DNA from: an uncultured Pelagibacteraceae bacterium
Lineage (GTDB): Bacteria; Pseudomonadota; Alphaproteobacteria; Pelagibacterales; Pelagibacteraceae
Length of the DNA: 64,000 nucleotides
NCBI GenBank assembly: GCA_902631255.1
Contig: CACOXS010000001.1
Location: 1 to 64,000 of the forward strand
Reading direction: 5' to 3'
The first letter of the stretch is position 1, and each line of letters starts with the position of its first letter. The notes below the pieces were generated by a model. It saw only the letters and a list, made by a program, of their open reading frames with translations, had not been told where the DNA came from and made no database searches. Shown piece after piece: positions 23,440-26,695 of this stretch. The translations under genes and the position numbers were made by a program.

Positions 23440-24393
23440 TTAATATAAATATTTATAAGATAATATTTTATAAGCCAACTTTGCTACTAGAAAATTGTAG
23501 GAATTAAATCCTTTAATTGGTGCGAGCTCATTTATATCTGCGCCAACGATGTTTGAATTTTTGGCTGCAATCTTAATTATATCTAAAACTTCATCCCATA
23601 GTAAACCACCAGGTTCAGGTGTTCCAGTTGCAGGCATGATACTCGAATCTAAACCATCTACATCGAAAGTTAGATACACAGTCTTATTTTTAATAAGTTT
23701 TTTAAATTTTTTTAGATTCCATTTTGACTTATCTTTTGCCCAAAAAATACTAATTCTAGATTTATTTTTTTTTAAAAAAGGTATCTCTTCTCTAGAAATA
23801 TTTCTTATTCCAAATGAGATTATTGAAACATTCTTATAATCTAAACATCTCCTGATAGCAGATGCGTGTGAAAATTTCTCACCATTGTAACTTTCTCTTA
23901 AATCTGCATGAGCATCAAAATGTAAAAGGCAGATGTTTTTGTGTTTTTTAACAAATGGAACTATACATCCTGGCGTGATTGAATGTTCACCACCAAAAGT
24001 CATAGGAAAAAGTTTTTTATTAAGAATTTCTTTATTTACTTCAGCTATCTTTTTTAAAGCTTTTTTAATATTCTTATCAATCTTAAATGGTTTTAAAGTT
24101 TTAATACCAATTTTTTTGTAAGGTTCACAATTTAATTCCTCATCATATAATTCAACTTGATGTGAAGCTTTAATTATCTCTTTTGGGCCATTTTTAGTCC
24201 CACCACCATAACTCACAGTTTTTTCTAGACCAAAAGGAACAATTACAACTTTTTCTTTAAAATTGAATTTATTATCTATTCCAAGAAATCCTTTTTTATT
24301 TGAAAGATATTGCAATGTTTTATCCAAAAATTTTTGTAAAGTTTTTTCTATCTCTATTTTTCCATTCACCTTTATGATATGCATCACTTGCAA
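23440..24393 (-). CDS. speB: Agmatinase-like ureohydrolase (arginase family)
   Basis: The protein (up to 317 residues) belongs to the arginase/agmatinase family. The binuclear Mn ligands are in FGGEHSITPG, LHFDAHADLRESYNG and LTFDVDGLDSSIMPATGTPEPGG. The family removes urea from a guanidino compound; agmatine is the likeliest known substrate. The longest frame overlaps the upstream deoxyhypusine-synthase-like gene by 74 bp. Family similarity begins near residue 45, so a later start such as a TTG near the upstream stop cannot be excluded. No arginine decarboxylase lies in the cluster, so the real substrate is open. Confidence 0.85.
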   Translation of the reverse strand: MQVMHIIKVNGKIEIEKTLQKFLDKTLQYLSNKKGFLGIDNKFNFKEKVVIVPFGLEKTVSYGGGTKNGPKEIIKASHQVELYDEELNCEPYKKIGIKTLKPFKIDKNIKKALKKIAEVNKEILNKKLFPMTFGGEHSITPGCIVPFVKKHKNICLLHFDAHADLRESYNGEKFSHASAIRRCLDYKNVSIISFGIRNISREEIPFLKKNKSRISIFWAKDKSKWNLKKFKKLIKNKTVYLTFDVDGLDSSIMPATGTPEPGGLLWDEVLDIIKIAAKNSNIVGADINELAPIKGFNSYNFLVAKLAYKILSYKYLY

Positions 24394-25363
24394 TCAAAGG
24401 TAATACACTTGTTGCCTCAGCAAAAACCATTTGTTCTTTCGTGACATCAACTTTACCCCATGAACTTGCCTCTTTTAAAGTTGAACTGCTACACGCACCG
24501 TCTCTTGAGTCTGCTACAGTAATTTGCACAGCATATTTATGCATTTCAACATCTTTACCTAAAAGTTCAGCACATATGACTGTGTCCTGAATAAAATTTT
24601 TTGGCACTCCACCACCTATCATGAATAATCCAGAACCTTTTGATTTAATTTTTATTTCAGTTAATTCTCGAAATTCTCTTATAGAGTCTATTGTAATATG
24701 TGATTTTGGGTTCTTTTCTTGATGAATTACTAAACCAAAACCAGCGCTAGAGTCTGTAAAAGCAGGACAGAATATTGGCACATTGTGATCATAGGCAGTT
24801 TCAATTAAAGAGTCTTTCTTTACCGAGTTTTTTTTAAGATATTTTCCCATTTCGTGAATAAATTCTCTAGAGGTATAGCTTCTAGGCTCCAAGTTATCAG
24901 CTATTTCACAAATTTTCTTATCACAAATTTGCAATTCATCTTCGTCAATGTAAGTATCGTATATTCTATCAATATAATTTTTTCTAAGTTCAGTATCATC
25001 TTGAAATTGAGAGCCTTGATAATGCTTAAATCCTAATGCCTCAAAAAAATCCATATCAATTATCGAAGCACCAGTTGCAACGATTGCATCTACCATATTG
25101 TATTTGACTAAATCTTTGTAAATATTCATACAACCCGCTGCTGAGGTCGAACCAGCTAAAGTTAGAAAAATTGTACAATCTTTATCTTTTAACATTTCAT
25201 TATAGATGTTTGCTGCATTTGCAGTTTCTCTAGATACAAATGACATTTTCTCCATTGATGAAATAATTTTTCTAGAGTCAAAAGATGTAATATCTATATG
25301 TTCAACTGGATTTTTAAGAAAGTCTTTTTTACTATTATGTCCTAGATTTTTATTTTTTGACAT
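24320..25363 (-). CDS. Deoxyhypusine synthase-like protein (possible homospermidine-type synthase)
   Basis: The 347-residue protein is a homologue of eukaryotic/archaeal deoxyhypusine synthase. NAD-site-like segments are FLTLAGSTSAAGCMNIYKDL and VDAIVATGASIIDMDF. The catalytic lysine motif SSWGKV is intact (Lys304). SLIETAYDHNVPIFCPAFTDSS and FMIGGGVPKNFIQD are further family features. True DHS moves an aminobutyl group from spermidine to eIF5A, which bacteria lack; relatives such as homospermidine synthase transfer it to putrescine. It sits between a decarboxylase (1-bp overlap) and the agmatinase-like gene, so a polyamine role is very likely. The exact product is unknown. Confidence 0.85.
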   Translation of the reverse strand: MSKNKNLGHNSKKDFLKNPVEHIDITSFDSRKIISSMEKMSFVSRETANAANIYNEMLKDKDCTIFLTLAGSTSAAGCMNIYKDLVKYNMVDAIVATGASIIDMDFFEALGFKHYQGSQFQDDTELRKNYIDRIYDTYIDEDELQICDKKICEIADNLEPRSYTSREFIHEMGKYLKKNSVKKDSLIETAYDHNVPIFCPAFTDSSAGFGLVIHQEKNPKSHITIDSIREFRELTEIKIKSKGSGLFMIGGGVPKNFIQDTVICAELLGKDVEMHKYAVQITVADSRDGACSSSTLKEASSWGKVDVTKEQMVFAEATSVLPLIASDAYHKGEWKNRDRKNFTKIFG

Positions 25364-26547
25364 TAAGCAACTAAAGTATCTTTGTTGCTGTCTTTGTTAT
25401 AGAGGCTCATTATAGCATTATCTTCAACTTCATAAATTTTATTAGAATAGAAACCATTAAATTGTGTTCTAAAGGTTAAGCCGTATGAACCTAATTGTCC
25501 AAGTTCTATATAATCATTTTCTTTAATATTATTAGGTAAAAGAAAAGGACCTTTCATGTAATCCATGCTGTCGCATGTTGGTCCATAAAAATCAAATGCA
25601 GTTAATTTTTTTGAAATAATTTTGTTTGAATTATCTTTTATCATTTTAGATGGAAACACAATATTTGGTGTTCCTGCATCAAAAAGTGTTCCATAAGTTC
25701 CATCATTTATATAAAGTTTTTGTTTTTTTCTTAAGTTAACCCGAACTATAGTTGAACCACTTTCAGCAACTAAAGCTCTGCCTGGTTCACAAATTATTTC
25801 TGGTAAATTTTCAATCTTTAAATTTTCTAGACCTTTCTTAATTTCATCAAAATAACTCTCTAAAGAGGGTGGAATTAAATCTGGATAGATAGTTGGAAAG
25901 CCGCCTCCTATATTTAAATAATCAGGAACAATTTTCGTTTTCTTTATTATATTTGCAATTTCGGAAATCCCTTTTGAGTATGAAATTGGATGCATACATT
26001 GCGATCCTACGTGAAAACTTAATCCAATCTTTTTTGAATGTTGTTTTACTAATCTTAAAAGTCCTGCCGCCTCTGAACTTATAGCACCAAATTTTTTTGA
26101 TAAGTCAATTTCAGCATGTTCATTCGATACAGCCACCCTTACAAATAATTCTAAATCTTTTGCATTGCTGGTGCTCTCAATAATTTTTATCAATTCATCT
26201 TTAGTATCGAGTGCAAATGTTTTGACTCCATATTTGAAGTATGCTTCACTTATATCTTCTCTACTTTTAATTGTGTGCATGAAAGAACACTTAGATACTT
26301 GATCAAATTTTCTGACTGCTTTTATCTCTTCCACTGAGGCAACATCAAATTGATTAATACCACTTTTTAATAAAGTTTTGATTACCTCAGGATGAGGATT
26401 TGTTTTGACAGCATACAGAATTTTACCTGGAAAGTTTTTTTGAAAAAATTTGGAAGCTGAAAGAATTGATTTCTTTCTAATACAATAAACCGGTTTGTCT
26501 GGTCTCAGTTGATTAACTAATTCTTCAACCGACTTAAATTTTTGCAT
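25363..26547 (-). CDS. Ornithine/lysine decarboxylase, alanine-racemase fold
   Basis: The 394-residue PLP enzyme is a fold-type III (eukaryotic-ODC-like) basic amino acid decarboxylase. The PLP lysine is K48 in LYAVKTNPHPEV. HVGSQCMHP and NIGGGFP are the phosphate-binding regions. The catalytic Cys325 lies in the ODC signature GPTCDSMD. It makes putrescine from ornithine or cadaverine from lysine; the sequence alone does not decide. It is the first gene of a three-gene polyamine unit and is preceded by a G-rich Shine-Dalgarno-like stretch (GGGGGG at 26561-26556) and a leader with a possible attenuator hairpin. Confidence 0.9.
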   Translation of the reverse strand: MQKFKSVEELVNQLRPDKPVYCIRKKSILSASKFFQKNFPGKILYAVKTNPHPEVIKTLLKSGINQFDVASVEEIKAVRKFDQVSKCSFMHTIKSREDISEAYFKYGVKTFALDTKDELIKIIESTSNAKDLELFVRVAVSNEHAEIDLSKKFGAISSEAAGLLRLVKQHSKKIGLSFHVGSQCMHPISYSKGISEIANIIKKTKIVPDYLNIGGGFPTIYPDLIPPSLESYFDEIKKGLENLKIENLPEIICEPGRALVAESGSTIVRVNLRKKQKLYINDGTYGTLFDAGTPNIVFPSKMIKDNSNKIISKKLTAFDFYGPTCDSMDYMKGPFLLPNNIKENDYIELGQLGSYGLTFRTQFNGFYSNKIYEVEDNAIMSLYNKDSNKDTLVA

Positions 26548-26575
26548 TTTTCATGCCCCCCAAAAAAAATTTAAC

Positions 26576-26606
26576 AAAAAAAAGTCTTTTTATTTAAAAA
26601 AACTTT
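26576..26606 (-). terminator. Possible attenuator hairpin in the decarboxylase leader
   Basis: On the minus strand, AAAGTTTTTTTAAATAAAAAG followed by ACTTTTTTTTG forms an imperfect 10-bp inverted repeat that runs directly into eight T. It lies about 30 bp before the decarboxylase start, within the 120-bp divergent gap. The layout resembles an intrinsic terminator, but the stem is almost entirely A/T, so it would be weak and could be compositional. Confidence 0.3.
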
Positions 26607-26695
26607 AATGAATCGAGCAATTAATTCAATACTTACCTAATGTAAAGCAAATAATGACCTATTGAATTGTGGAAAAAAATTCCCATATTGGATAT

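Follow-up and report, generated by a model that had tools for sequence, protein, structure and literature searches.

What does a homologue of deoxyhypusine synthase (DHS) do in a bacterium that appears to lack the protein this enzyme modifies, eIF5A? The question is raised by a three-gene cassette in a 64,000-nucleotide stretch of contig CACOXS010000001.1 from an uncultured Pelagibacteraceae bacterium of the SAR11 group (hereafter the window; GC content 29%). A preliminary description had read it as a polyamine cassette built around a DHS-like enzyme without eIF5A substrate, and the cassette is real. The three minus-strand open reading frames (ORFs) score 332 (DS), 130 (Orn_Arg_deC_N, PF02784) and 206 bits (Arginase, PF00491, on the 291-aa ureohydrolase) against Pfam, far beyond chance. 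No eIF5A (PF01287) matched in 12 genomes, although the control (14 genomes) found it in only three of four archaea, missing Haloferax volcanii, and the window genome (G000) is 57% complete. We propose, with a probability of roughly 60%, that the cassette enzymes convert arginine to homospermidine along a route in which the guanidino groups are removed late. The genes of the cassette are:

25363-26547, minus strand: alanine-racemase-fold pyridoxal-phosphate decarboxylase, 394 aa (PF02784, K48, C325, a common motif, tested homologues)
24320-25363, minus strand: DHS homologue, 347 aa (NF002699 score, pocket residues, tree)
23440-24315, minus strand: arginase-family ureohydrolase (SpeB-like), 291 aa, TTG start (TIGR01230, PF00491, start conservation)

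The model for this route is Thermus thermophilus, in which CdmS takes agmatine only and CdmS plus TtSpeBap yield homospermidine (PMC10981699). In the window, the alanine-racemase-fold enzyme would convert arginine to agmatine, as its homologues have been shown to do; the DHS homologue would join two agmatine molecules, presumably via an imine, to bis-guanidino-homospermidine (caldomycin); and the ureohydrolase would strip both guanidino groups as urea, as shown for the Thermus pair. The earlier suggestion of a homospermidine cassette whose ureohydrolase may act on the product of the DHS-like enzyme matches this demonstrated route. The window shares with the Thermus system the catalytic lysine, six of seven pocket residues and a ureohydrolase partner, but differs in one pocket residue and in a probable arginine decarboxylase (ADC) derived from ornithine decarboxylase.

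It is at the first step that the preliminary description has to be revised, since it had called the decarboxylase an ornithine/lysine decarboxylase (ODC/LDC) and held that no ADC was encoded here. Lys48 and Cys325 are present as described, and the closest PDB structures are lysine/ornithine decarboxylases (2plj), a chlorovirus ADC also being listed. However, the old name is a fold-level name only; with the NCBIfam model DokD the protein reaches 41 bits (cut-off 700). In alignments to 2plj and 5gjm, the window protein has proline where ODC/LDC have aspartate and the chlorovirus ADC has glutamate, at what we take to be the specificity-helix position. In published assays, arginine was the only substrate decarboxylated by the 394-aa homologue of Ca. 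Pelagibacter AAA797-I19 and by the 396-aa homologue of Fonsibacter, activity with ornithine and lysine being undetectable (PMC9992855). Their clusters, ODC/ADC-DHS(SpeY)-arginase or -NCPAH-AIH, are essentially the one described here: the Pelagibacter decarboxylase has the same length as that of the window, and a 396-aa decarboxylase followed by AguB and AguA, as published for Fonsibacter, recurs at our locus L034, presumably the same cluster. Orthology was judged by cluster and by the motif [YF]INDGTYG[TS]LFD[AG]GxP, common to all 41 SAR11 decarboxylase rows including the window and the Fonsibacter-type L034, and on this basis the window enzyme is very probably an ADC. That it supplies putrescine or cadaverine, from which the DHS homologue would transfer an aminobutyl group, agrees with the fold and with the closest PDB structures but is hardly credible in view of the substrates of the homologues (PMC9992855), the replaced aspartate and the decarboxylase partners recognised elsewhere, which belong mostly to ADC families (in a survey without an aspartate-aminotransferase-fold ODC query). 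Two PF02784 genes were found in each of 12 genomes searched; the other one of the window genome most resembles diaminopimelate decarboxylase (231.6 bits for a 241-aa piece, cut-off 297.9).

The second step rests on the family and the pocket of the DHS homologue. It scores 583.5 bits (cut-off 500) with NCBIfam NF002699, 'bis(guanidino)-5-aza-nonane synthase', whereas all six other DHS/SpeY models listed stay below their cut-offs; the SpeY model NF001980 gives 189 (cut-off 450) and TIGR00321, deoxyhypusine synthase, 233 (cut-off 304). Homologues from three named Thermus species, other than T. thermophilus, whose own sequence was outside the comparison, pass NF002699 at 541-546 bits. Identity is 57-58% to these, 26-27% to NF001980 SpeY and 31.5% to a human DHS segment. 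The catalytic Lys304 lies in SSWGK, as had been described, and belongs to a pocket formed by S72, E141, D148, F209, C291, E298 and K304. Six of the seven residues discussed for CdmS (S67, E136, D143, F204, E293 and K299) recur at an offset of 5. The resulting pattern, SEDFCEK, is found in 41 of 41 SAR11 rows (window included), next to SEDFLEK in all three Thermus proteins, AYDMLEK in both NF001980 proteins and NNEDDEK in human DHS; 79 other relatives have SEDFLEK (68), SEDFCEK (10) or SEDMLEK (1). Relatives came from a profile scan of genome contigs, from which the 80 best of 567 confirmed hits were retained, the three named Thermus included; a search of a phage collection gave no match. In the tree (99 rows, SAR11 being represented by 11 of its 41 rows), the window protein falls within the DHS superfamily, as the preliminary description had expected, and not in an unrelated family, the outcome that would have refuted it. 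More specifically, it belongs to a CdmS-like set of 94 rows that also holds Thermus and stands apart from NF001980 SpeY and DHS; the support of this set (94/93) is just under the level starred in our trees, and the human protein sits on a long branch. The SAR11 proteins adjoin a Sphingomonas plasmid copy (100/91).

Family membership and the CdmS-like pocket are the reasons why we place the hydrolase after coupling, although sequence alone cannot settle the order of the two steps. A comparable order is favoured for Haloferax, with DHS transferring agmatine and agmatinase acting afterwards (PMC5178350). The published account for SAR11 runs the other way: in the text and the Fig. 2 legend of PMC9992855, ADC produces agmatine, SpeB (or AguA plus AguB) turns it into putrescine, and the DHS homologue, named SpeY by the authors, couples two putrescines to homospermidine. 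The same scheme has been proposed for Zymomonas (PMC8594446), putrescine has been detected in SAR11 (PMC8437039), and the available parts of PMC9992855 tabulate the decarboxylases alone as assayed. Cyanobacterial SpeY (NF001980) indeed shares with the window protein the DHS superfamily and, as proposed, homospermidine synthesis, but the low model score, the low identity, the different pocket residues and the separate branch set the two apart, and the window pocket resembles that of CdmS, which left putrescine unused (PMC10981699). CdmS is only 27-33% identical to the other enzymes aligned there, including the putrescine-coupling SpeY of Cylindrospermum, and therefore this SpeY is probably outside the NF002699/CdmS family. 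We consider coupling of putrescine in the window distinctly less likely than the late-removal route.

From its sequence we infer that the cassette ureohydrolase takes off guanidino groups: it carries the metal-site motifs GGEHS, FDAHAD and DVDGLD and, measured on the longer ORF first called, reaches 205 bits with the agmatinase model TIGR01230 (cut-off 174), while NF002564 gives 120 (cut-off 302). It is 30% identical to the second Thermus ureohydrolase versus 22.5% to the Thermus arginase type, and in a SpeB tree the SAR11 cassette proteins group with a cassette SpeB from Staskawiczbacteria (81/94, not starred). The cassette enzyme need not be the genome's only agmatinase, because a second arginase-family gene in the window genome (L170, G000:C10:6812-7630) passes the NCBIfam agmatinase models (NF002564, 307.6 against 302). 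Among the matches listed, many genomes belonging to the window's genus have another strong arginase-family gene (about 316-326 bits), including several with AguB+AguA cassettes (such as G017 and G048), while others, such as G022, G074 and G088, lack any arginase-family match. A dedicated agmatinase elsewhere, as predicted, would leave a putrescine-making cassette hydrolase redundant.

How constant is the cassette? Within the order, NF002699 matched 136 of 197 genomes, 133 of these over cut-off; every match lies in the window's family (f1) and none in f2, with eight listed f1 genomes lacking a match; as a control, 7 of 14 named genomes matched, three of them over cut-off. In one genome of the genus, stop codons interrupt the DHS homologue (G176:C25:24782-25784). 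At 40 loci chosen from the matching genomes (23 from the window's genus, 17 from other genera), the ADC and DHS genes are adjacent without exception. The third slot, assigned by similarity and ORF size, holds a SpeB-like gene in 24 and AguB+AguA-like genes in 16. A 260-aa ORF separates DHS from SpeB in L051; L039 (genome G158) has tandem SpeB-like frames, perhaps one frameshifted gene. AguA (PF04371) was matched in 15 of the 16 AguB+AguA loci; in the remaining one (L070) the contig stops after AguB. NCBIfam names the six AguB/AguA proteins compared, which come from three loci, at scores below the equivalog cut-offs (299-307 versus 410 and 233-252 versus 382). Across the order, all 52 f1 genomes with AguA have it within 1.5 kb of the DHS gene. 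On the ADC tree the third slot needs eight changes, at least six of them forced by starred branches, and the two types switch even between near-identical ADCs (L067 versus L069). All seven pocket residues of the DHS homologue are the same in both types, window included; a residue signature following the third-slot type was sought and none appeared at the sites compared with CdmS, the roughly 20 differing positions being variable elsewhere.

Agmatine is the textbook substrate of SpeB and of AguBA alike. Since the two exchange so freely, this pattern is most simply explained by hydrolysis before coupling and favours the putrescine-coupling scheme. In the late-removal route that we prefer, relatives with AguB+AguA would carry out the last step by deimination and decarbamoylation. 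A caldomycin route in SAR11 in which ureohydrolase and deiminase plus amidase both act on caldomycin, swapped repeatedly behind a fixed ADC-DHS pair, is a tentative proposal that we hold at somewhat less than even odds.

Outside SAR11, partners of the DHS family were surveyed at 83 named loci, with up to 6 kb per side and several short contigs; the counts include the query sources L072, L147 and L150. Recognised partners were present at 18 loci. Decarboxylases comprise pyruvoyl ADC at five, SpeA-like proteins at six (five of these weak, at 20-22% identity; that of L150 is below its NCBIfam cut-off) and the alanine-racemase fold at one; SpeD-like genes occur at six (four next to SpeE), SpeB-like genes at 14 and AguA+AguB at one. 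The clearest case is the Staskawiczbacteria contig L147, with the order pyruvoyl ADC, DHS, agmatinase, in which ADC and agmatinase both pass NCBIfam cut-offs; judged by its gene content, it provides the same three steps with an ADC of another origin. Such non-homologous ADCs beside a DHS of this family speak for the agmatine-coupling route. Around the three Thermus genes, the SpeB and ADC queries remained unmatched within 6 kb. The Sphingomonas plasmid DHS adjoins a type III decarboxylase and lacks a neighbouring hydrolase. Taken alone, this arrangement might point to putrescine as the substrate, but it is not decisive, as a related operon has been proposed to work with ADC and AguA/AguB encoded elsewhere (PMC8594446). 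Separately, on two Nostocales plasmids (L073, L074) a CdmS-like DHS gene adjoins rocD, with iron-uptake genes in the neighbourhood and no SpeB nearby, and the Nostoc genomes G197 and G198 possess a CdmS-like DHS in addition to NF001980 SpeY.

Several observations weigh against late removal of the guanidino groups. CdmS Leu286 corresponds to Cys291 in the window, and the window protein sits in a separate Cys291 subclade of 22 rows (100/100). The residue roles in CdmS derive from docking into a predicted model (PMC10981699). S72, E141 and F209 are not a general mark of agmatine use, because the haloarchaeal DHS group, proposed to transfer agmatine, lacks them (NSENLEK in two of two). The SpeB tree did not resolve the hydrolases by substrate, and 65 of the 83 loci lack a recognised partner within the DNA surveyed. 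No assay of any SAR11 DHS homologue was found in the literature examined. In culture, agmatine and putrescine were at low levels, and the native polyamines were spermidine and homospermidine in HTCC1062 but spermidine alone in HTCC7211; the authors expressed doubt that homospermidine synthesis is the main function of Dys2 (PMC8437039). For HTCC7211 Dys2 they also raised, and left open, a catabolic role. A mainly catabolic or promiscuous DHS homologue that breaks or exchanges imported spermidine or norspermidine nevertheless seems quite improbable, as the same authors preferred SpeE for spermidine use and the invariable ADC adjacency argues for synthesis. The seven analytes of their panel, as given in the available parts of the paper, do not include a guanidino-triamine.

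Genes and chemistry have each been published already; their combination in SAR11 is what we propose. That the SAR11 cluster can end in arginase/agmatinase or in NCPAH/AIH is known from one Pelagibacter and one Fonsibacter (PMC9992855). In bacteria and archaea, the speDA-speY-speB/aguAB clusters (PMC10407285) follow the same logic of ADC, DHS homologue and guanidine hydrolase, with speB or aguAB as alternatives, but their ADC derives from SpeD. The novelty is modest, because the NCBIfam name already spreads the caldomycin idea into automatic annotation. Within literature coverage that leaves out most subscription journals, '5-aza-nonane' or 'caldomycin' led to PMC10981699 only, where 'pelagibacter' occurs 0 times, and the papers pairing Pelagibacter with deoxyhypusine synthase, as far as their text was available, yielded no proposal of agmatine coupling in SAR11. 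If the late-removal route is true, very abundant ocean bacteria make a guanidino-polyamine outside the seven analytes of the SAR11 study, the putrescine-first account of their polyamine synthesis changes its order, a reaction known from one thermophile extends to mesophiles, and new substrates are predicted for AguA/AguB. Even if putrescine comes first, the repeated swaps of a finishing module in one operon slot are a natural experiment in pathway replacement.

The gene junctions differ in part from the preliminary description, which had reported overlaps of 1 bp and 74 bp. The 1-bp overlap of decarboxylase and DHS genes (TAATG) is real, and 27 of 40 relatives have it too. That of 74 bp is an artefact of ORF calling, the ureohydrolase ORF having been called from the first in-frame TTG (23440-24393). 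We assign the gene to 23440-24315 because the frame upstream of this start is closed in 19 of the 22 informative SpeB-type relatives (of 24 compared, L039 and L051 being uninformative); the three with an open frame are L056 and two near-copies of the window, L065 and L066. The TTG at 24315 thus lies 4 nt after the DHS stop, and in 18 of the 22 the start falls in a range from 4 nt before the DHS gene ends to 3 nt beyond it (17 nt beyond it in L067). Ahead of the ADC gene lies one further feature:

26556-26654, minus strand: ADC gene leader, with a TTATTTGCTTTACATT box followed by a T-rich stretch with a terminal G run resembling a ribosome-binding site (upstream alignment)

An Rfam search of this upstream region for a riboswitch returned three chance-level matches, none near the gathering score. 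A scan for promoters and terminators gave 16 promoter-like sites (shuffle mean 21.6) and 3 terminator-like ones (1.7). The leader alignment (19 of 41 upstream regions) is clear among closer relatives and weak in L032, L034 and L045. The cassette is flanked by a plus-strand Vut_1-family transporter of the queuosine-precursor type and a divergent plus-strand response regulator of the ActR/PrrA/RegA type. As regards other polyamine genes, neither AdoMet decarboxylase nor spermidine synthase was found in the Fonsibacter-like G009 or the incomplete G000 among the 12 genomes searched. The two domains share one open frame in L169 and in 10 of the 12, a fusion already published, and the spermidine synthase matches of G001 and G007 contain one TAA.

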